Assembly (NCBI RefSeq): GCF_000963885.1 | Contig: NZ_BALE01000048.1 | Span: 1-64,000, forward strand | Length of the DNA: 64,000 bases | From: Tanticharoenia sakaeratensis NBRC 103193 | GTDB lineage: Bacteria > Pseudomonadota > Alphaproteobacteria > Acetobacterales > Acetobacteraceae | Direction of reading: 5' to 3' | In this document: piece after piece, positions 9,146 to 32,397 of the stretch | How positions within the stretch are numbered: position 1 is the stretch's first letter | How the letters are laid out: each line of letters opens with the position of its first letter | Notes under the pieces: generated by a model | Told to the model about the DNA's origin: nothing | Database searches by the model: none | What the model saw: only the letters and a program-made list of their open reading frames with translations | Translations under genes and position numbers: made by a program

Positions 9146-9340
9146 ATGGCCCTTGTGCTCGGCCTCCCCGGCCTTGCCGTTCTGGGCGCCATACCGGTCC
9201 TCGACCGCAGCCACGCCATGCTGTTCGGCATGCCGGTCCTGCTCGACTGGCTGTTCCTGTGGTTCCTCGGCACCACGCTCTGCCTGTGGGCGGCATGGAT
9301 CCTGTTCGACCGCGACCGGACGGACGAGGACGCGTCATGA
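9146..9340 (+). CDS. Small two-helix membrane protein, DUF3311 type
   Basis: The 64-aa protein has two predicted membrane helices (about residues 2-20 and 28-50) with a short polar C-terminus ending DRDRTDEDAS. Small proteins of this kind (DUF3311) are characteristically encoded next to sodium:solute symporters, which is the case here. Its TGA overlaps the ATG of the symporter (ATGA). The role is probably as an accessory subunit or stabiliser of the transporter (inference). ATG 9146 matches the start of the first helix. Confidence 0.65.
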   Translation: MALVLGLPGLAVLGAIPVLDRSHAMLFGMPVLLDWLFLWFLGTTLCLWAAWILFDRDRTDEDAS

Positions 9341-10707
9341 CGACGCTCGTCTTCGCCCTGGTCATCGCGCTGTCGCTTGTTCTGGCCTGGGCATCCCGCC
9401 GGGGGCATGCCCACCCTTCCCTGCGCGAGTATTTTACCGCGTCGCGCCAGTTCGGTGCGGTGCTGGTGTTCTTCCTGTCTGTCGGCGAGACCTACAGCAT
9501 CGGCGGGTTGCTGGGCTTTCCCGGCGGGGTCTATGCGCGCGGGCTTCCGTTCGCGGTCTGGTTCGTGGGCTATCTCGTCCTGTCCGTGCCTGTGGGCTAT
9601 CTGGTCAACCCGCTGATCTGGCGGGCGGCGAAACGGCTGGATGCGCTGACGCTTGCCGATCTCTACGGCGGCCATACGCGCAGCCGGGGGCTCGAGATTC
9701 TCGTGGCCCTCTGCGCCATCGGGTTCCTGATCCCTTGGGGCGCCATGCAGTTTGCAGGCCTGAACGTGGCGCTGTCCGGGCTGGGGCTGCATCTGCCGCG
9801 AGCGGGACTGATGGGCGGTGCCGGTGTGCTGGCCTTTGCCTATCTTGCCCTGTCGGGCGTGCGGGCGCCGGCCTATGTCTCCGTGCTGAAGGACGCGCTG
9901 CTGATCGGAGCGATCGCGCTGGTCGCGGGCGCCGTGCTGATGGCCGGATTTCCGCCGGGAAGCCTTGCCCGCGCCTGGCCCGCCATACCACCCGACGGCC
10001 CGCTGCTGACGCCACATCAGGAGCGGTATGCGATCACGACGACGATCTTCCAGGCACTTGGCCTCTACATGTCGCCGCTGACCATGGCCTACATTTTCAC
10101 GGCCCGGTCGGCCCGCGCGATCCGTCGCGCGCAGATCCCGATGCCGCTCTACATGGCGATGTTTCCGGCACTGACCCTCGTGGCGCTCGCCGCGCGGGCC
10201 AGCGCCGTCCCGCTCGGCTCGCCCAACGACGCCTTCATCGCCTCGGCTCGAACGCTGCTGTCCCCGGGACTGCTGGGACTGGCCGCGGGGGCCGCGGCAC
10301 TGGCGGGCCTCGTCGTGCTGGCCGGCACGTGTCTGGCCATCGGGCCGCTGATTTCGCGCAACCTGCTGCCGCAGCTGCCGGAGACGAAACAGAAGGCCTA
10401 CGCCCAGGGCGCGATGGTCGGCTATCTCGTGCTGTCCATGGCCGCGGCCCTCGCCCTACCCGGCCTGATCGTGACGCTGAACAACCTCACCTATCTCGGT
10501 ATCACGCAGTTCCTGCCGGGCGCGATCGTGATCGGCCTTGCCCGTCCGGTGTCGCCGGTCCGGCTGGCCCTGGGCCTGATCGTCGGGGATGCAGTTGGCG
10601 TCAGCCTGTTCCTCGGCGGGTTTGACTGCGCAGGGATCAACGCCGGCCTGATCGGGCTTGTGCTGAATGCCGCAATCGTTGCGACCGGCCTGCGCCGCAC
10701 CGCCTGA
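9337..10707 (+). CDS. Sodium:solute symporter family transporter
   Basis: The 456-aa protein has about 12-13 hydrophobic segments and the SSS-family feel: an N-terminal YFTASRQFGA segment, GETYSIGGLLGFPG, and a core repeating helical pattern. It would move an unidentified organic solute, probably an organic acid, with sodium or protons. It is translationally coupled to the DUF3311 gene upstream, and its stop overlaps the start of the YigZ gene by one base (TGATG), so the three genes form a tight operon. Confidence 0.8.
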   Translation: MTTLVFALVIALSLVLAWASRRGHAHPSLREYFTASRQFGAVLVFFLSVGETYSIGGLLGFPGGVYARGLPFAVWFVGYLVLSVPVGYLVNPLIWRAAKRLDALTLADLYGGHTRSRGLEILVALCAIGFLIPWGAMQFAGLNVALSGLGLHLPRAGLMGGAGVLAFAYLALSGVRAPAYVSVLKDALLIGAIALVAGAVLMAGFPPGSLARAWPAIPPDGPLLTPHQERYAITTTIFQALGLYMSPLTMAYIFTARSARAIRRAQIPMPLYMAMFPALTLVALAARASAVPLGSPNDAFIASARTLLSPGLLGLAAGAAALAGLVVLAGTCLAIGPLISRNLLPQLPETKQKAYAQGAMVGYLVLSMAAALALPGLIVTLNNLTYLGITQFLPGAIVIGLARPVSPVRLALGLIVGDAVGVSLFLGGFDCAGINAGLIGLVLNAAIVATGLRRTA

Positions 10708-11294
10708 TGCAGCGTCCGCTCGCCCATCACGTGCTGGAGGTGGATATCCGGCACAGCCGCTTTCGCGCTGACGTCGCCCCTGCTTCCAGTGCCGACACCG
10801 CGCTCGCCTTTCTCGAGACGATCCGCGAGCCCGAGGCGACGCATCAGGCCTGGGCCTATCGCGTGGGGTCCGTTTTCCGCAGCTTCGACGCCGGCGAGCC
10901 AGGCGGCACGGCGGGGCGGCCGATTTTGTCCGCAATCGACATGCTGGATTTCGATCAGGTCATGGTGGTCGTCACGCGCTGGTATGGCGGCGTGAAGCTC
11001 GGTGCGGGCGGCCTCGTGCGCGCTTATGGCGGGACGGCGGCAAGCTGCCTGCGCGAGACCGCCTCGGCCCCGATCGTCGCCATGACGCGGCTGCGGTTCC
11101 ACTGTCCGTTCTCGGATCTCGCCATCGTCCAGTCCCGGCTCGCGGTCTGGGATGCGACCGAGGACAGCTGCGATTTCGATGCAACCGGCGCGGCCCTCAC
11201 ATTGGCGCTTCCGACCGCGCGTGCCGACGAGATCATGGACAATCTGCGCGATCTTACCCGCGGGCAGGTTCCGATCGCACGCGAAGACGACTGA
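10707..11294 (+). CDS. YigZ/IMPACT family protein
   Basis: The 195-aa protein carries the IMPACT/UPF0029 N-terminal domain, seen in SFRADVAPASS, HQAWAYRVG, DAGEPGGTAGRPIL and VTRWYGGVKLGAGGLVRAYG. Members include E. coli YigZ and eukaryotic IMPACT, linked to translation control, though the bacterial biochemical role is unclear. The C-terminal ferredoxin-like domain is shorter and less conserved. Its ATG overlaps the stop of the symporter gene. Confidence 0.85.
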   Translation: MQRPLAHHVLEVDIRHSRFRADVAPASSADTALAFLETIREPEATHQAWAYRVGSVFRSFDAGEPGGTAGRPILSAIDMLDFDQVMVVVTRWYGGVKLGAGGLVRAYGGTAASCLRETASAPIVAMTRLRFHCPFSDLAIVQSRLAVWDATEDSCDFDATGAALTLALPTARADEIMDNLRDLTRGQVPIAREDD

Positions 11295-11754
11295 CAGTGG
11301 GGTGGGGCAGGCCGGGCCATAACTGGCTGCCTGATGACGTCTTCCTCGCCGTGGAGCATACGCGGCCAGTCGGAGGCGTGCGAACAGCACGTTCCGCCAA
11401 AAGCCCCGCCCTCATGGGGCCCACAAGCGCTCCGATATGGAACAGTTTCGCGCGACCAGCCGACGTGGCGCTGGAGAGACACAGGAACCGCCCCCGTGCC
11501 ACTGCGTGAGACATAGCGCCTGTGACACAGGCAGCGCACCGGTGCCGGGCCGCGCAACACACGATGTGACGCAGGCACGCGAAAAACCGTCGCGTCATCT
11601 GGCTGCCCGGTGATAGCATTGGGTCCACACCGCCCGTTCAACACCTGTTCGATGACGATCCGGAGTGTCGCGCCTCCGGGACAGGGCTCATTGCGAGACG
11701 ACGAAGGCCGATCCGCCTTTGTGTCGTTCGACAGCCGTGAGAAGGGCGACCGCC
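11295..11754. other. 460-bp gap upstream of the amidohydrolase gene
   Basis: No coding sequence is supported. Short frames on both strands show no recognisable domain. The right end holds a plausible ribosome site (GAGAAGGG) for the amidohydrolase ATG at 11755. A decayed gene cannot be excluded. Confidence 0.35.
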
Positions 11755-13110
11755 ATGCACGTCGATCTGCTGATTACCGACGCCTACCTGTATCTCGACC
11801 GCGATTACGAAATTCCCGGCGGCTGGATTGCGATCAAGGATCGCCGCGTCCATTCCGCAGGCACCACGGCCGAGCCGCCGCCGTCCGCCGCGCGAACATT
11901 GTCGGCCAGGGGACGGCTGGTCACGCCCGGGCTGATCAACGCCCACCATCACATGTACCAGAACCTGACGCGCGCCTATGCGCCGGCCGTTAACGGCACA
12001 TTGTTCCAGTGGCTGACCACGCTCTATCCGCTCTGGGCCGGGCTGGATGACGAATCCGTCTATCTCTCGACCTATGTCGCGATGGTCGAACTGCTGATGG
12101 GTGGGTGCACCACCTCGATGGACCATATGTATGTCCATCCGAAGCCGAAGCTGATCGATGCGCAGTTCCGGGCCGCCAACGCGATCGGCTTCCGCTTCCA
12201 CGCGACACGCGGTTCCATGACGCGCTCTATCGAGGATGGCGGCCTGCCGCCGAAATCCGTGGTGCAGGACGAGGACACGATCCTCGCCGACAGCGAGCGC
12301 CTGATCGGAACCTTCCACGACACACGGCCCGGCGCCATGAACCGCGTGGCGCTGGCGCCGTGTTCTCTGTTCAGCGTGTCCGAACGGATTATGGTGGAAT
12401 CGGCGAAACTTGCCGACAGGCACGATGTGCGCCTGCATACCCATCTCGCCGAAGACCCGGACGAGGACGAATACTGCGCCCGCGTCTATGGCTGCACGCC
12501 GACCGAATACTTCGAGCGCGTCGGCTGGGCGACGAAGCGGTCATGGGTCGCGCACTACATCTTCCCCTCGTCCGAGGAAATCGACCGGCTTGCCCATGCC
12601 GGCGTCTGTGTCGCGCAATGCCCGTGCTCGAACATGATGATCGGCGGTGGGGCTGCGGACGCGATGGACATGCGCAGGCGCGGTCTGCGCGTGGGCCTGG
12701 GCTGCGACGGCTCGGCCTCGAACGATGCCGCCTCGCTGTGGATGGAAACGCGCCAGGCGCTGCTGCTGGGCCGCTTCCGCCATGGCCCGCAATCCATGAC
12801 GGCACGCGATGCGCTCGACATGGCGACGCGTGGCGGAGCCGCCTGCCTCGGCCGGGAAGACGAGCTCGGCCATCTCCGGCCCGGCGCCTGCGCCGATCTG
12901 GTTATCTGGGATGCCCACCCTGTCGCACGCGCGGGTGCCCTGACCGATCCGGTCGAAGCCTGGCTCCGCTGCGGCCCGGCGGTTGCCGGCACGACGATCG
13001 TGGACGGGCGCGTGCTCGTGGACAACGGGGAGCCGCAGCTCGCCGGACTGGCCGACGTACTGCGCGATCACGCCCGCGAGGCGCGGCGGATCCAGGGACT
13101 ACAAGGATAA
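11755..13110 (+). CDS. 8-oxoguanine deaminase-like amidohydrolase
   Basis: The 451-aa metal-dependent hydrolase has the first metal motif as HHHMYQN (about residues 63-69), the second metal region around HTHLAEDPDEDE, a later conserved His in WVAHYI, and the terminal metal aspartate in GLGCDGSASND. The sequence around the first motif (YQNLTRAYAPAVNG...LFQWL) closely recalls the 8-oxoguanine deaminase subgroup, often annotated as hydroxyatrazine-type aminohydrolases. It likely deaminates 8-oxoguanine to urate, removing an oxidised base. Other purine or triazine substrates are possible. The start is set by GAGAAGGG 8-9 bases upstream. Confidence 0.8.
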   Translation: MHVDLLITDAYLYLDRDYEIPGGWIAIKDRRVHSAGTTAEPPPSAARTLSARGRLVTPGLINAHHHMYQNLTRAYAPAVNGTLFQWLTTLYPLWAGLDDESVYLSTYVAMVELLMGGCTTSMDHMYVHPKPKLIDAQFRAANAIGFRFHATRGSMTRSIEDGGLPPKSVVQDEDTILADSERLIGTFHDTRPGAMNRVALAPCSLFSVSERIMVESAKLADRHDVRLHTHLAEDPDEDEYCARVYGCTPTEYFERVGWATKRSWVAHYIFPSSEEIDRLAHAGVCVAQCPCSNMMIGGGAADAMDMRRRGLRVGLGCDGSASNDAASLWMETRQALLLGRFRHGPQSMTARDALDMATRGGAACLGREDELGHLRPGACADLVIWDAHPVARAGALTDPVEAWLRCGPAVAGTTIVDGRVLVDNGEPQLAGLADVLRDHAREARRIQGLQG

Positions 13111-25926: not shown

Positions 25927-27123
25927 TCAGAGAACCGGCTGTGGCATCCGGAACGTCGCAAGCTCGCGATGATGCAGGAGTAGCACGCCGGTCGTGTGCG
26001 CCAGTTGCCGCGCAGACTGCGTGAAGCCGGCGTTGCTCACGACCAGCGCCGCGTGGGCGCGCTGGTGGCGTCCGGCCGCGAAAGCCTCCTGTACGGCGCG
26101 GTTGCCGACCGGCTGGCTGTGAAGCTTGCACTGCACGACGATTTTCCGGCCCGCGCGCATCGCGATCACGTCCGCGCCCTGATCGCCGCTGGCAGGCGTC
26201 GTGCGCGCGTCCCACCCGGCGCGGCGCAACAACAGCGCGCAATGATGCTCGTAAAGCAGCGGGTCCATCGCAGGATCGAAGACGGCGGGATCGCCTGGCG
26301 GCCCGGTTGCAAGTCCTGCAACCGGCGGAACCAGTGCGGAGACCATCTCGATATGACGCACCGCCCGCATGGACAGGGGCTGCCACTGATCGCCGAGACG
26401 ATCGCCCGCGAGGATCGTCAGGAGACGCGTCTTGCAGAAATACTCGATCTCGCGCTGCCATTTCGACAGGTTCACCGTGCCGTAGCGATCCGGCGCGGTC
26501 AGCTGGAGGCGCCGGACCTGCAGCGTTCCCGCCTGTTGGTCGATCTCGGAGACGATCAGGCGCCAGGCGCGACGACGCCGGTTCAACCGGCGCGCGATAC
26601 GCCAGACGACATAAAGCGTGACGAGTGCCGCCAGACCGAAGAGGCCATCCAACCTCATCCCCCGCAACGCCGCCACCTGCCCGAGAATATCCGAACCTCC
26701 CGCCTCGTCGGCAGGCGGCAGGTTCGGCTTTTCCCAACCCGGCGGCAGCACCGGGCCCGCAGATTGCGGAGAATCCGGCTGTTCGTCCTTCTGGGGGCCG
26801 AACGAGATCTGCTCACGCATGAAATATAGCGGTGGCATGCCGATTTTCGGCGGATCGCGTCGCAGCAGCACCATGGTCTCGCTGCCGCTGATCTCGTCCC
26901 AGGCTTCGGACGGGCTGGCCTCGAAACACCGACCGGTGCGCAGCATGCCCCTGACCCAGTCCGGGCCGTGCTGGCGCAGCGTCGCCGGATCGGCCAGAAC
27001 GCGGGTGACGCGTGGATCGACACAGGCATGAACCGTCGCCGTCGTGTGGAAGACGCGATCGGCGTGAGCCTGGGCCATGAGCGGAAAGGCCGTCATTACC
27101 GCAACAGACAGCAGTTTTCTCAT
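25927..27123 (-). CDS. Membrane-anchored Mrr-like restriction endonuclease domain protein
   Basis: The 398-aa protein starts with a signal sequence (residues 1-20, AQA-H). A periplasmic region of about 140 residues with two cysteines (34, 67) follows, then one membrane helix (about 160-177) followed by RRLNRRRR. The C-terminal PD-(D/E)xK domain (about 286-398) has the Mrr-type features YEHHCALLLRRAGW, GDQGADVIA and VVQCKL. Positive charges after the helix place the nuclease in the cytoplasm. ATG 27123 follows a strong GGAGGAAGG. A longer upstream frame is rejected. Mrr domains cut methylated or foreign DNA, but no methylase is nearby. Confidence 0.75.
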   Translation of the reverse strand: MRKLLSVAVMTAFPLMAQAHADRVFHTTATVHACVDPRVTRVLADPATLRQHGPDWVRGMLRTGRCFEASPSEAWDEISGSETMVLLRRDPPKIGMPPLYFMREQISFGPQKDEQPDSPQSAGPVLPPGWEKPNLPPADEAGGSDILGQVAALRGMRLDGLFGLAALVTLYVVWRIARRLNRRRRAWRLIVSEIDQQAGTLQVRRLQLTAPDRYGTVNLSKWQREIEYFCKTRLLTILAGDRLGDQWQPLSMRAVRHIEMVSALVPPVAGLATGPPGDPAVFDPAMDPLLYEHHCALLLRRAGWDARTTPASGDQGADVIAMRAGRKIVVQCKLHSQPVGNRAVQEAFAAGRHQRAHAALVVSNAGFTQSARQLAHTTGVLLLHHRELATFRMPQPVL

Positions 27124-27387
27124 GGCCTTCCTCCCATCCATGCGCGTCGTGCAGGCACTCTCTCGCGGCGTGGCCGGCAACAGAGTTCGACCTATCGGCC
27201 GGACGCCCGGACACGTGTCGATTCCTTGTGGATGTGTCAACATATATAGAACAGTCCGCGAACAATACGCGGATAACGCGGTCGTTCCGAACGGGATTCC
27301 ACGAGGTGCGGAAATTACCGGTTCAAGGGCGACACCGGGTTGTTCAGCAAGGACGGCAATGCGGCGTCCATGACGGCGCAATCGCCG

Positions 27388-27774
27388 TCAGCGTTGCGGC
27401 TCCGCGCTGTGCCGTGGCGCGTGAGAGAGGGAACGCGAGCCGGAGCGCACAGCGGAATGCTGCGGGCGAAAGGAAGCTTGTGCTGCGGCTGACCGCGACG
27501 CGTTGCGCTGGTTCAGAACAGTGCAGATCAATGCAGTGGCAATCGTGCTCAGGCCAAAGGCGCCGACCCACAGGATGATCGCAAATCCGATCGTGTCCTG
27601 ATCCGTCATCATCAGGCGCAGATCGCATCCCAGAAGGACGAGAGCGCCGATGCGCAGGGCGTTCCGGCGGCGGCCGGAACAGGGCCGTCCGAATATCGCG
27701 CGTCCGCCGTGCACCGTGCCGCCCGCCAGCAGCAGCGTGCCGATCAGCATGAAAAGGCTCGTCGTCATCAGCAT
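27388..27774 (-). CDS. DUF3325-type small membrane protein of the siderophore operon
   Basis: The 128-aa protein has three hydrophobic segments (about residues 5-20, 38-52, 65-88) and a Ser/Arg/Ala-rich tail. Size and position right after a PepSY gene match the DUF3325 proteins that accompany TonB-receptor/PepSY loci. Its ATG directly follows the PepSY stop (TAGATG), so it is last in the operon. Function unknown, probably an accessory to the reductase. Confidence 0.6.
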   Translation of the reverse strand: MLMTTSLFMLIGTLLLAGGTVHGGRAIFGRPCSGRRRNALRIGALVLLGCDLRLMMTDQDTIGFAIILWVGAFGLSTIATALICTVLNQRNASRSAAAQASFRPQHSAVRSGSRSLSHAPRHSAEPQR

Positions 27775-29265
27775 CTATCGCGACACCGCGATCTGGCGGC
27801 CCCGCGACATCCCGCCACGCCGCGTTCGCGAGATGGCGAATGCGAACCCCAGGGCGAGAGCCGCCGCCACGATTGCCGTTCCCTGCTCGACGCCCGTCGT
27901 CCAGGGCGCGCTGAGGACGACGATAGCGCCCAGCGTCACAACTGCCGCGCCACACAGGATCCGCCAGCTCCAGACCGCAGGCGTCAGCACGGCCAGGACA
28001 AGACTCGCGCCCCAGACGATGAAAACCGCCTGCACCTCATGGTCCGCACGTCCCGGCATGGAGACCGGCAATACCCGGTTGGCCAGGAAATAGGCCGAGA
28101 ATGCCAGCGGTGTTCCGGCAATCATGCCGGCATTCAGCCGCTCCATCGCAACGAGCCCGCGCGTGCGCCCCTGTCTGCGACGGCGGATCGTCCAGAGTCT
28201 CAGTCCGCTTGCGATCACGCAGGCCAGCAGCACGCCGGATGCGAAATACAGCCATCGCGTGGGGCCAGGTGCGAAGCGGGCGATGTGCAGCCCGTACAGC
28301 ACGGCGAACGTCGCCATGACCGGCCGATCTTCGCGATCTTCCTTCAGAACCCGTCCGTTGGTCCCGTCGATCTGCAGCACATGGGTCGCATAGCCGATAC
28401 GATCGCCGTTGGCGCCGGTGACGACGATCGACGACGCCGCGTCCTTCGGATTGAAGACATAGACCTCGCCCAGTCCCGCTCGGCCGAGCCTCTGATCCGC
28501 CATCCGGAGCATCGCATCGACGGGCGCCAGCGTGCCGGGATGTCCTGATGCCGGCCGTGCCACCGTCGCAGGGCTCATGTCGGTGTCGAAAGCGGCCGGC
28601 GCATGGTGATACGCGGCGCCGATGCCCCAGGGAAACAGCAGCGTTCCGAGGGTTACGGCCCCCGTAAAGGCGATCATCAGGTGAAACGGAAGTGCCGCGA
28701 CACCCATGAGGTTATGGGCATCGAGCCAGCTTCTCTGCCCCTTGCGCGGCCGGAACGTGAAAAAGTCGGAGAAGATCCGGCGATGCACGACGATCCCGGT
28801 CAGCAGCGTCAGGACGAGCACCATGGCCGCGATGGCAGCCAGAAGCCTGCCCCATGGATAGGGCAGCTGAAGCTGGAAATGGAACCGATAGAAGAACTCG
28901 CCGCCCAGCGTATCCCTGATCCCGTCCGGCGCGCCCGTCAGCGGATCGAGCGCACGCTGGACATAATGTCCGTCCTGCAACCACAACGCCCAGGTATAGG
29001 GCGCACGGGGCCCCGCCGCCGACAGGTACCAGGCCGGCGAGTCAGGCGCGTGCGCCTGCAGCCAGCCGATGGCGGCAGCCGTGGCCGGCACGGCCTGTGC
29101 GGTTCGTCCGGCCAGTTCGGGATGCATCCAGACACTGATTTCAGGACGGAAGACGCTGAGCGCACCCGAGAGCGCAATCGCGTACAGAACCCAGCCTGTC
29201 ACGATCCCGACCCAGTTGTGCAGCCAGGCCATCGAGGCGCGCAGTCCGCCCCTCACGATATCCAT
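27775..29265 (-). CDS. PepSY-associated membrane protein (putative ferric-siderophore reductase)
   Basis: The 496-aa protein has the PepSY_TM layout: a first helix after MAWLHNWVGIVTGWVLYAIALSG, a PepSY-containing periplasmic loop, a helix pair near residues 190-215 and 250-270, and further helices at 380-500. Family members in siderophore operons are thought to reduce or release iron from imported siderophores at the inner membrane. ATG 29265 starts just before the conserved first segment and overlaps the upstream DUF3649 gene by 13 bp. It is the third gene of a four-gene iron operon. Confidence 0.8.
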   Translation of the reverse strand: MDIVRGGLRASMAWLHNWVGIVTGWVLYAIALSGALSVFRPEISVWMHPELAGRTAQAVPATAAAIGWLQAHAPDSPAWYLSAAGPRAPYTWALWLQDGHYVQRALDPLTGAPDGIRDTLGGEFFYRFHFQLQLPYPWGRLLAAIAAMVLVLTLLTGIVVHRRIFSDFFTFRPRKGQRSWLDAHNLMGVAALPFHLMIAFTGAVTLGTLLFPWGIGAAYHHAPAAFDTDMSPATVARPASGHPGTLAPVDAMLRMADQRLGRAGLGEVYVFNPKDAASSIVVTGANGDRIGYATHVLQIDGTNGRVLKEDREDRPVMATFAVLYGLHIARFAPGPTRWLYFASGVLLACVIASGLRLWTIRRRRQGRTRGLVAMERLNAGMIAGTPLAFSAYFLANRVLPVSMPGRADHEVQAVFIVWGASLVLAVLTPAVWSWRILCGAAVVTLGAIVVLSAPWTTGVEQGTAIVAAALALGFAFAISRTRRGGMSRGRQIAVSR

Positions 29266-29522
29266 CCATGTGACAGGGCGGCGGCTGCAAGGAGCATTAC
29301 CGTTGCCGCCATGCTGACGCAGGCCCTGCGCGTCGAGCGACACGCGCAGCAGAACATCGCGGCGAGCGGCCATACGAGCAGCGCTGCCAGCATGCCCGCG
29401 ATGACGTTGTCCGCTCGCGGCCATGGCAGCCATTGCGCCAGCACGACACCCACCAGAGCCGCGACCAGATAGCCCCCGGCCGCGGCCAGAGCCACCCTTA
29501 TGGCGACCGTTGCCCGCATCAT
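29253..29522 (-). CDS. DUF3649-type small membrane protein
   Basis: The 89-aa protein has three predicted helices with VAALVGVVLAQWLPWPRADNVIAGMLAALLVWPLAAM and a terminal AALSHGWIS (quoted in parts; helices at about 8-28, 38-58, 66-84). Small DUF3649 proteins sit between TonB-dependent receptors and PepSY proteins, as here: 19 bp after the receptor and overlapping the PepSY gene. ATG 29522 or 29519 could be the start; the Shine-Dalgarno is poor, so coupling to the upstream gene is likely. Confidence 0.6.
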   Translation of the reverse strand: MMRATVAIRVALAAAGGYLVAALVGVVLAQWLPWPRADNVIAGMLAALLVWPLAAMFCCACRSTRRACVSMAATVMLLAAAALSHGWIS

Positions 29523-29541
29523 GCGGGCGGTCGAAAAAGTC

Positions 29542-31776
29542 TTACCAGGTAAAGCCAAGGGTTCCCTGTGCGTTGCGTCGCTCTCCATACCAGCACCACT
29601 CGTCATACGGTGCATAGCCGTAGCAGCTCGCGACATAGCGCTTGTCGAACAGGTTGCGCACGCTTGCGGACACAGTCCAGCCCCGCAGGGAGTGGGACAG
29701 TTTGCCCAGATCGTAGCGCGCGGAGGCGTCGAAGACCGTGTAGCTCGGCACGTTCACGTCCCCGAACGAGGCCGTCCCGCCATAGGCGCTGGCCGCATGG
29801 CGCAGGCCGGCTCCGATGCCGAAACCCTGCATCGGCCCCTTCGGCAGCGTGTAGAAGGCAAAGAGCGATGCATTGCCGCGCCCGGCCTGCACGAGCGGCT
29901 TGCCGGTCGAATCGTCATGGGTGCGCTGCGTGCTGTAGGCCGCGGTGATCATGAGGCCCTTGTAGGCGTCGACATGGGCCTCGAATTCGAAACCGTCCGA
30001 ATGGACCTTCCCGCTTTCCGTGCTGTAGCCGAGATTGCCGGCGGCCACGAGCACGTTGGTCTGCTCGATATGGAAACCTGCGGCACTCAGCAGGATGGGC
30101 GTGCCCGGGATCTGATATTTCGCGCCGCCTTCGAGCTGTTTTCCGATCGAAGGATCGGCCTGGCGTGTCGTGCGGCCGCCGTCGTTCGACACCACGCCCG
30201 ACTGCGGCTGGAACGACGTCGAGTAGCTGATGTAGGGCGCAAGGCCGAAATCGAAGTGGTAGAGGCCCGATGCGCGGAACGTGATCTGCCCCGGGCTTTC
30301 ATGCGTCCGGCTGCCGCTCAGATATTCGGTCTGGTTGCTGCGATACCAGTCGTTGCGCAGGCTGCCCATGAGGATGAACCGGTTCAGCCGGATCTCGTCC
30401 TGGCCATAGGCGCCGATCTGGTGCTGGTTCGTCAGATAATTGGCGATGGTGGGCAGGGGCGCGATCGTCTGGCCATAGACCGGATGCAGGACGTTGATGT
30501 CCGGCGCGCTACCGTAGCCTTCGACTTCCGTCGCGCGGCTCTGCTGATAATCGAAACCGGCCATGATGGTGTGCCGGAGGATTCCCGTCCTCACATGGCC
30601 CCGGAACTGGTTGTCGAACGCCAGGTTGTTCATCTGCTCGTTGGCGGAGATGGCGCCGCGGTTGAAATTGCCCGCTTCCTCTTGCGCCAGATCGGGCAGG
30701 TAAGTCACCGGATCGGCATACACGCCTGTGCCGTAGACGCTCTTGTAGGCCGTCTGGATGTTGTCGTAACGCCCGCGCGACGTGAAGCTCCAGTCGCTGT
30801 TGAAGCGATGGGTGAAGATGTAGGTGATGGAGCCCTGCTTGCGGTTGAATTCCTCGAACGAGGGATCGCCATCATAGAAGTCACGCGGGATCCGGCCGAA
30901 CGCCGCATGCGTCAGCGAGCCGAGCAGCGGGACCGAGCCGTAGGACGCGTTTTCCGGATCGTATTGATAATTGCCAAGCAGCGTCAGGGTGGTGGGGCCG
31001 TCACCACCGATGGTGACGGCGGGGCTGATGCTGAAACGCTGGTTGCCGGTCTTGGTCAACTGGCTGTGCGATCCGTTGGCCGTGCCATAGAGCCGGTAGC
31101 GGACGAAACCATTATCGGTGGCCCAGCCGCCCACATCCGCATCGACGCGGTAGAGATCGAAGCTGCCGCCGGTCGCGGCGACGGAGCCGTAGAATTTCGA
31201 GGCCGTCGGCAGCTTGCTCGACAGCGCGACCAGGCCGCCCGGGCTCGATTGTCCATAAAGCGCCGACGCAGGCCCCTTCAGGATCTCGATCGAGTCGAGA
31301 CGCGAAGTGTCGGTCTGGGCGGTGGCATAGCCATTCGGGCTTGACTGCAGTTTCAGGCCGTCGAGAAATGTCGGCACGGTGAAGCCGCGCAGCGCGAACA
31401 TGTCGTAGCGGGTGGCGGTCGAACCACGCTGGTCCTGCGTGATGCCGGCTGCATAGCGGACCGCCTGGTTGAGGTTCAGGACGCCGCGGATGTCCATCTC
31501 GTTGCGCGTGATGACCGTGACGGACTGGGCGGTATCGACGATCGGCGTATCCGTCTTGGTGGCCGACGATGCCACGGTGGACGCCTTGCGCGCCCGGACC
31601 ATGATCCGCTCCTCGCTTAGACGTGCCTGCTCGCGCGCAGCCTGCGCATGCTTCTTCTCATTGGCCGTCTTGTGCGGAACGGACGTCGCCGTCTCGGCCG
31701 CCTGCGCGACCTGCAGCGTCAGTACCGTCCCCGTCAGGGCCAGAATCCGCCCCGAACACCATTTGTTGACCGCCAC
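29542..31776 (-). CDS. TonB-dependent siderophore receptor (FhuA-like)
   Basis: The 744-aa precursor has a signal peptide (ending VAQA-AE), a plug domain with DTAQSVTVITRNEM and RYDMFALRGF, and a 22-strand barrel ending in Trp (GTLGFTW). RLDSIEILKGPASALYGQ is the typical plug motif of ferric-siderophore receptors. It imports a ferric siderophore, probably hydroxamate type, across the outer membrane with TonB energy. The start is GTG 31776, chosen for AAAGAGGAGG eight bases upstream; upstream codons lack a signal. It heads the operon with DUF3649, PepSY and DUF3325 genes and has a Fur-like box in its leader. Confidence 0.88.
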   Translation of the reverse strand: MAVNKWCSGRILALTGTVLTLQVAQAAETATSVPHKTANEKKHAQAAREQARLSEERIMVRARKASTVASSATKTDTPIVDTAQSVTVITRNEMDIRGVLNLNQAVRYAAGITQDQRGSTATRYDMFALRGFTVPTFLDGLKLQSSPNGYATAQTDTSRLDSIEILKGPASALYGQSSPGGLVALSSKLPTASKFYGSVAATGGSFDLYRVDADVGGWATDNGFVRYRLYGTANGSHSQLTKTGNQRFSISPAVTIGGDGPTTLTLLGNYQYDPENASYGSVPLLGSLTHAAFGRIPRDFYDGDPSFEEFNRKQGSITYIFTHRFNSDWSFTSRGRYDNIQTAYKSVYGTGVYADPVTYLPDLAQEEAGNFNRGAISANEQMNNLAFDNQFRGHVRTGILRHTIMAGFDYQQSRATEVEGYGSAPDINVLHPVYGQTIAPLPTIANYLTNQHQIGAYGQDEIRLNRFILMGSLRNDWYRSNQTEYLSGSRTHESPGQITFRASGLYHFDFGLAPYISYSTSFQPQSGVVSNDGGRTTRQADPSIGKQLEGGAKYQIPGTPILLSAAGFHIEQTNVLVAAGNLGYSTESGKVHSDGFEFEAHVDAYKGLMITAAYSTQRTHDDSTGKPLVQAGRGNASLFAFYTLPKGPMQGFGIGAGLRHAASAYGGTASFGDVNVPSYTVFDASARYDLGKLSHSLRGWTVSASVRNLFDKRYVASCYGYAPYDEWCWYGERRNAQGTLGFTW

Positions 31777-32397
31777 ACCCAGCCTCCTCTTTGCGGATCG
31801 GGTTATGACGATAATGAGAGTAAGTCGCAACTAGGCAATGCGATGCACAGAGGCGATGTAACCTTTTGTCAGATTTGCGTTGGGAACCCGCGATGGAACG
31901 GACCGGCAATCCCTGTGAAGCAGGACGACCACCGTATGCTTGGGAACGGCCCCTGTCTCGCGCCCGTCACGGCTGCACTGGGGAAAAAGCGCCCTGTCGC
32001 TGGAGCCCAAGGCACCCGGCTTCAGCAAGCCGGAGAATGCCGGCACGGCGCCGTATCGATCCCAGGGCACGCCGACGACAGCGGCCCGACCTCACGAATC
32101 GTCAGGCAGTTTGTCATGGATTTGCAGGCAGCGGCATATCGGGAACGCGATCCCGCGCCAGAATTGCTGTCTCGCCATCCGCCGAAGGGAATTGCCCTGT
32201 CCCGGCCGGGTCATGGTTTGCAATCCCGGGATGATCCATGTCTTCATTGAAGCGTTTACGATGAACCCCCTGTCGCGTGCCCTGCGCCGACAGCTTGCAG
32301 ACCGTCTTCCGGCTGTTTCATAAAGCTGTCCCGCTGCCGCCGCCTGCGATGTGGCCATCTCCGCCCGAACAGAGAGCCTGCTGCCCTGACCTACATC
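31777..32397. other. 621-bp divergent gap between siderophore receptor and tetR
   Basis: The left end contains the Fur-like box and receptor promoter. The remainder holds short frames on both strands without recognisable domains or good ribosome sites. I see nothing else that I can support. Confidence 0.35.
31810..31828. promoter_or_regulatory. Fur-like box upstream of the siderophore receptor
   Basis: The 19-mer starting GATAATGAGAGTAAG matches about 13 of 19 positions of the classic Fur consensus, with a perfect first hexamer and TGA. It lies 34-52 bp upstream of the receptor GTG, where binding would block the promoter under iron-replete conditions. Other alphaproteobacterial iron regulators use different boxes, so the regulator is inferred. 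Confidence 0.45.

Follow-up and report, generated by a model that had tools for sequence, protein, structure and literature searches.

A gene of 398 codons and a stop on the minus strand of the window (the whole stretch of 64,000 nucleotides that was analyzed, positions 1 to 64,000 of contig NZ_BALE01000048.1 of Tanticharoenia sakaeratensis NBRC 103193) appears, on balance, to encode a single-protein Mrr nuclease that is tethered to the membrane and of mobile-element origin, and that would guard its carrier against entering DNA, probably that of phages. In SNIPE, as described in 2026, a nuclease at the membrane distinguishes foreign DNA from the cell's own solely by where it is (PMC13190303), and the protein encoded in the window is, by analogy, most likely an Mrr-based counterpart of SNIPE, with the same layout and an unrelated nuclease. 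We consider cutting at the site of entry the best single explanation because the order of the parts is SNIPE-like and the nearest relatives of the gene are carried by prophage-like DNA and by an island. If the family works like SNIPE, cutting at the entry site would be a convergent strategy, used by prophages.

The gene occupies positions 25927-27123, with its ATG at 27123; a longer alternative frame starts at a TTG and encodes 484 amino acids, but the ATG is preferred because GGAGG lies 6 bases ahead of it. A chance frame or a wrong strand is ruled out by the open reading frame on the minus strand, the stops that are present on the plus strand of 25927-27123 in the frame translated, and the Pfam match to Mrr.

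Table 1. Predicted parts of the membrane-tethered nuclease and its translation signal in the window
Feature	Positions	Strand	Basis
Ribosome-binding site, GGAGG at 27130-27134	27124..27135	-	sequence, 6 bases 5' of ATG at 27123
Signal peptide, residues 1-21	27061..27123	-	sequence and hydropathy; cleavage site is an estimate
Exported two-cysteine domain, residues 22-108, Cys34 and Cys66	26800..27060	-	cysteine pair in 22/22 aligned rows
Low-confidence linker, residues 109-154	26662..26799	-	alignment (Pro-rich in relatives); pLDDT <50 over 109-145 and 150-154
Single transmembrane helix, residues 155-178, followed by basic RRLNRRRR	26590..26661	-	hydropathy and charge
Cytoplasmic helical core, residues 183-265	26329..26577	-	matched together with Mrr in relatives; mostly confident model helices
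Mrr PD-(D/E)xK nuclease domain, residues 285-390	25954..26271	-	Pfam, alignments, fold

The initial annotation, made from the letters of the DNA, had proposed a signal sequence, an exported region of about 140 residues with two cysteines, one membrane helix and a cytoplasmic Mrr domain, and the predictions bear out this anatomy (Table 1). The N-terminus is of the signal type (MRKLLSVAVMTAFPLMAQAHA), with a modest peak of 1.16 at residue 4 as judged by hydropathy only, and the predicted exported stretch spans about residues 22-157. A single strong hydropathy peak falls within residues 155-178 (19-residue mean of 1.62 at residue 158), and the net charge is 0 in the 20 residues before the helix and +5 after it, so that, by the positive-inside rule, the C-terminal part is predicted to be cytoplasmic. 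The profile search that had been suggested for the C-terminal part identified Mrr_cat (PF04471) at residues 285-390, with an E value of 9.8e-23 and a score of 80.9 bits, the cut-off being 21. The catalytic-type residues are E292, D314, D318, Q331 and K333, Mrr_cat nucleases being characterized by D...QxK-type catalytic residues. At E values up to 1, the Pfam scan of the entire protein yielded only Mrr_cat, NA-iREase1, Mrr_cat_2 and Hjc; the exported part, for which a domain search had been suggested as well, produced no match at this threshold, and neither did Mrr_N, the GIY-YIG nuclease or DUF4041. There was no match in the NCBIfam scan, and a match to ApcA1 (E 0.4) was set aside as noise.

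An AlphaFold2 model built from 11 aligned rows has a mean pLDDT of 74 and is confident for the helix, the core and the nuclease, with pLDDT of about 61-73 for the exported residues 31-110; single-sequence prediction reached a mean pLDDT of 43. Residues 287-392 of the model adopt the PD-(D/E)xK nuclease fold, the best match among solved folds being AF1548 (1y88; Z 12.5, 105 residues, rmsd 3.0), and the rows of the VIA-align fold search span mostly residues 271-398. The matches in BFVD indicate that phages carry restriction-type proteins of the PD-(D/E)xK fold. The strand order of the exported domain in the model gives the impression of an SH3-like arrangement.

Taken together with the predicted topology, these features suggest how the protein could act. 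It would be exported up to the membrane helix, so that the two-cysteine domain, probably held by a disulfide, would reside in the periplasm and may contact the envelope or something that phages use there, whereas the helical core and the Mrr nuclease would be suspended on the cytoplasmic side. DNA that crosses the membrane beside the nuclease would be cut before circularising or replicating, and the tether would keep the nuclease off the chromosome.

Among the matches listed, the best four after the window copy are L062 (genome G360), L042 (a paralog on contig 88 of the same T. sakaeratensis genome), L063 (G389) and L064 (G330). The paralog has phage-type integrases at 1.9 and 2.6 kb, one on each side, and the distances to the integrase in L062, L063 and L064 are 9.2, 1.3 and 2.2 kb, respectively; the chance of finding an integrase within 10 kb of all four is about 4e-6 under random placement, with contig ends ignored. 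By eye, farther relatives include one with an integrase at 1.7 kb (G372) and one with a Xer-like gene at 9.3 kb (G084), the integrases of the other relatives being apparently more distant or on different contigs. Comparison of the neighboring genes to PHROGs detected a CI-like repressor and a DnaB helicase in L062, a tape-measure protein and an integrase in L063, and terminase subunits, DnaB and an integrase in L064. All three loci reside in prophage-like DNA; no prophage was seen around the window copy on its own contig. L064 corresponds to the IMG/VR viral contig L102, with 11,948/11,948 bases identical, and the two were therefore counted once. In two more viral contigs, L103 and L104, the gene is on the opposite strand amid tail genes, with a tape-measure gene nearby; a second viral scan added L122 and L123, which belong to the same contigs as L102 and L103, and nothing further. 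Speaking against the phage link, a search of 50,697 annotated phage records gave only seven matches, all at the Mrr end and none covering more than 80% of the query.

In the tree, the window protein forms a 7-row set with L042, L062, L063, L064, L103 and L104 (SH-aLRT 96), and all six partners are on mobile or viral DNA; the tree was built by a quick method with no bootstrap, and the long branches, including L074, L061 and L072, are unsure. The paralog L042 shares 11 bases with an overlapping ORF that matches Abi_C and AbiJ in its C-terminal half, and PIN and HTH genes come after the paralog. The proposal of the initial annotation that the nuclease acts on incoming DNA thus gains support from where the nearest relatives lie, namely, prophage-like DNA and an AbiJ-bearing island bounded by integrases, but the window copy itself is without such neighbors among those examined; similarly, the statement that no methylase or defense gene is adjacent holds for the neighbors examined in the window but not for the paralog with its AbiJ-type gene. 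Phage carriage alone does not demonstrate defense.

Several features of these mobile loci were observed on the side. The island in the T. sakaeratensis genome (L042:7058-7828 and 9281-13067) encompasses the AbiJ-type ORF, two PIN-domain genes and an HTH gene, with flanking integrases. The tape-measure gene, whose product is bound by SNIPE, is located 0.5 to 3.4 kb from the nuclease gene in L063, L103 and L104, a proximity that may be coincidental. In L103:7116-8723, one stop codon divides two same-phase frames, one for the part preceding the helix and one for the membrane nuclease, which are either two genes or the result of a nonsense change.

On its own contig, the window gene is placed between a gene for a GH32 enzyme and a DUF3325-PepSY-TonB receptor run that is on the same strand as the gene; the four neighbors scanned with Pfam matched GH32, DUF3325 (just below the cut-off), PepSY_TM and the TonB plug. 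The run (27388-31830) lies ahead of the gene across a 264-base gap that contains a terminator-like hairpin at 27255-27273, one of three such sites in the region, compared to 1.0 expected. TonB receptors are common phage receptors. Among the window neighbors, four of which were scanned with Pfam and the rest inspected by eye over about 6 kb on each side, there is no phage or defense gene; no methylase was found in the same set, and ordinary restriction-modification was rejected. The nearest integrase on the contig is 57.5 kb away, and no tRNA was found in the window, so that no tRNA-type insertion site is seen there. The GC content of the gene is 0.666, and its GC3 of 0.784 is within the range of five neighbors (0.77-0.853), on which ground a recent foreign composition was rejected. 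The flank of the window gene is 89% identical, at the DNA level, to a sequence in genome G102 from 31889 down to 27487, where the match ends; no relative of the gene was found in the 14 kb read at the matching G102 flank, nor in G025 and G022 in the surroundings of their GH32 gene, and a conserved neighborhood was rejected. Given this break in the flank match and the lack of the gene at that G102 flank, the window copy has the appearance of an accessory gene, one whose nearest kin are mobile and whose own mobile neighbors are no longer visible.

Of 397 genomes from the bacterial family of the host, Acetobacteraceae, at least 91 contain a match with an E value of no more than 0.001, in a search that scored at most four candidates per genome in most rows; many of these matches consist of the core and Mrr, or of Mrr alone, and a smaller set also matches the exported domain. 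When the profile of the exported domain was compared to 289 genomes of the class, the matches listed came only from T. sakaeratensis itself and from G640, which belongs to another family; three further same-family genomes among those listed were without a match, and a scan of genome contigs gave one doubtful short match. The cysteine pair is kept in all 22 rows of an alignment that were picked from 59 frames for having the exported domain, and therefore this count does not represent a sample of all core-plus-Mrr proteins. In 12 of these 22 rows, E292, D314, D318, Q331 and K333 are all present together, whereas in the remaining 10, which retain the cysteines, K333 is gone, with a K to R change in 3. 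In a closer alignment of the window protein, D314, Q315, D318, Q331 and K333 are conserved in 8 of the 8 rows.

The region ahead of the helix varies: it consists of the two-cysteine domain alone, of PG_binding_1 types or of other, unassigned parts. PG_binding_1, a peptidoglycan-binding domain, was detected in 2 of the 12 members scanned with Pfam, in both cases on the N-terminal side of the last membrane helix; in L065, it occurs together with the two-cysteine domain, and in the phage-borne L104, it is flanked by two hydrophobic peaks, one at residue 32 and the other at residue 288. If the proposed role is correct, these swappable exported modules would make what such guards recognize testable. 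Two domain arrangements stand apart: L075 has the exported domain and the helix but no Mrr domain, and in L096:8009-9655, the helical core, by eye, apparently occurs twice before the Mrr domain.

An alternative to cutting at the entry site is that the protein is a sensor of envelope damage in which a disturbance of the wall would cause the Mrr domain to cut the cell's own DNA, resulting in abortive infection. The PG_binding_1 domains, the retention of the cysteine pair in the 10 aligned rows that lack K333, and the overlap of the paralog with the AbiJ-type gene in the island are all compatible with such a sensor, but no gene for a partner motor or effector was found among the scanned window neighbors, and signal transfer through a single helix has no support; we regard this possibility as unlikely, if the strongest of the rivals.

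Somewhat less probable still is type IV-like restriction, in which foreign DNA would be recognized by its modification wherever it is in the cell and the anchor would be incidental. Apart from the match to the Mrr family itself, the observations that fit this scenario come from plasmids. Among 72,556 plasmid records, there were 214 matches, including those from Acetobacter, Rhodovastum and Acidiphilium, none of which covered more than 80% of the query, the nearest covering the core and the nuclease only. By hydropathy, the core-plus-Mrr relatives on plasmids of Acinetobacter, Azospirillum and E. coli have no membrane helix and would be soluble, hence the wider family can do without the tether; a helix is present in L120, from an Acetobacter plasmid, and in the viral contig L108. 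A wider core-plus-Mrr family thus seems either to have acquired the anchor or to have lost it. Against an incidental anchor, however, the helix recurs among the collected loci, with a hydropathy peak of at least 1.4 in 45 of the 49 and a net charge of at least +2 behind the best peak in 48 of the 49 (in L076 and L077, the peak is just beyond the scanned range, L059 and L078 have weak peaks, and in L080, the best peak is elsewhere). Classical Mrr possesses an N-terminal DNA-recognition domain, Mrr_N, the very domain that Pfam did not find in the window protein. Among the plasmid loci, L124:5725-6684 and L125:5710-6669 are helix-less core-plus-Mrr genes on E. coli plasmids, with an LprI/DUF1311 gene in both stretches and an annotated baseplate gene near one of the two. 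The copy at L118:1024-1923, from a Zymomonas plasmid of 4.5 kb, has upstream in-frame stops, and its annotation gives a shorter protein.

The nuclease motif, which the initial annotation expected to be conserved among homologs, is kept in the clade of the window protein but has been lost in 22 of the 50 collected members, a set that includes the window protein and 49 loci with settable starts and is not a random sample. The automatic procedure called 24 members dead, and two of these, L100 and L099 (R for Q), were corrected by hand. By eye, 19 of the 22 dead members are found in recurring chromosomal places, beside cobalamin genes or pheS-pheT, so that the refuting conditions named by the initial annotation, loss of the motif and housekeeping surroundings, give a mixed outcome; the other members of the clade of the window protein are on mobile or viral DNA. 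Sixteen of the dead copies (L043-L058) come from two genera and, where the contig is long enough, are seen by eye to have cobT, cobS and a cobC-like gene on one side and a permease gene on the other. Three degenerate copies (L066, L072 and L074) have pheS-pheT (by eye) on the upstream side and a gene for a Schlafen-type helicase (Pfam) on the downstream side; the fragment L070, which is outside the count, has the same upstream pair by eye, and lepA was recognized by eye in two of these four loci.

The dead Mrr region has a dN/dS of 0.13, compared to 0.29 and 0.23 for the exported part in the two dead groups (medians of 66 and 6 pairs, with region borders set by script), and the Mrr region of the intact copies shows values of 0.16 and 0.18 (2-4 usable pairs); it is the most constrained region in all four groups, dead and intact alike. 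The dead copies are not decaying, given that the dN/dS of their Mrr region is about as low as that of the intact ones. A pure nuclease role does not explain this constrained dead domain, and because it is held under strong constraint in two genera, part of the family has probably been reused for another role; the conservation of the dead clade suggests a defense-type protein turned to other use. The dead label requires at least two changes on the tree; the dead state may have one single origin. The last alternative, a housekeeping membrane protein of the host that uses its Mrr fold to bind DNA or protein, for example, in nucleoid or wall linkage, with the nuclease being ancestral and incidental, would account for the sixteen dead copies with recurring neighbors in two genera, for their low dN/dS and for the further copies behind pheS-pheT, but is the least probable explanation for the window protein, whose clade retains the catalytic residues and otherwise consists of members on mobile or viral DNA, and whose gene is missing at the matching G102 flank.

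Returning to the preferred reading, a nuclease that cuts DNA at its entry site, a broader scenario can be put forward tentatively: the family could be a second class of injection-site nucleases that was built independently, is carried by prophages and islands with swappable exported modules (two-cysteine, peptidoglycan-binding or others) that would select the place or time of cutting, and was then domesticated in at least two genera as a catalytically dead but strongly conserved membrane protein. The nuclease family, the idea of a membrane guard and prophage defense are each already known; the combination of an exported domain, a helix and Mrr on prophages was not found in the open-access literature searched, which likewise returned no description of a membrane-anchored Mrr family.

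With the Mrr and type IV restriction enzymes (PF04471), the window protein shares the nuclease fold and motif, and it differs from classical Mrr in having a membrane anchor and an exported domain and in that Mrr_N was not found. The PADLOC candidate PDC-S02, with models of 334-390 positions, has a C-terminal Mrr domain as well, and the Mrr part alone matches. The best PADLOC match is the ZorD1 model, at positions 948-1058 of 1071, that is, the Mrr part only. For Zorya type II, envelope sensing with suicidal cutting has been proposed (PMC11890865); according to the same source, Zorya ties an envelope protein that contacts the wall to an Mrr-like nuclease, and the tie between envelope protein and nuclease is common to both. 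Unlike Zorya, however, the gene in the window encodes a single protein that lacks the helicase part of ZorD, and no adjacent ZorA/ZorB motor genes were seen among the neighbors (four scanned with Pfam, others by eye).

SNIPE, as its authors describe it, spans the membrane once, by a helix that follows an external N-terminus; a middle domain helps it bind DNA, and its GIY-YIG nuclease lies in the cytoplasm. It cuts the DNA of phages while this is being injected and becomes toxic when the helix is removed; it also binds the tape-measure protein, and its N-terminal region is highly variable among homologs (PMC13190303). The main text of that paper does not contain the word Mrr. The two proteins differ in their domains, GIY-YIG and DUF4041 in SNIPE versus a PD-(D/E)xK Mrr nuclease and a different core in the window protein, and the latter, unlike SNIPE, has a predicted folded exported domain with conserved cysteines. 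The layout is nevertheless shared: an N-terminus outside, one helix, a middle domain and a C-terminal cytoplasmic nuclease, as predicted here from hydropathy and charge, along with an N-terminal region that varies among relatives.
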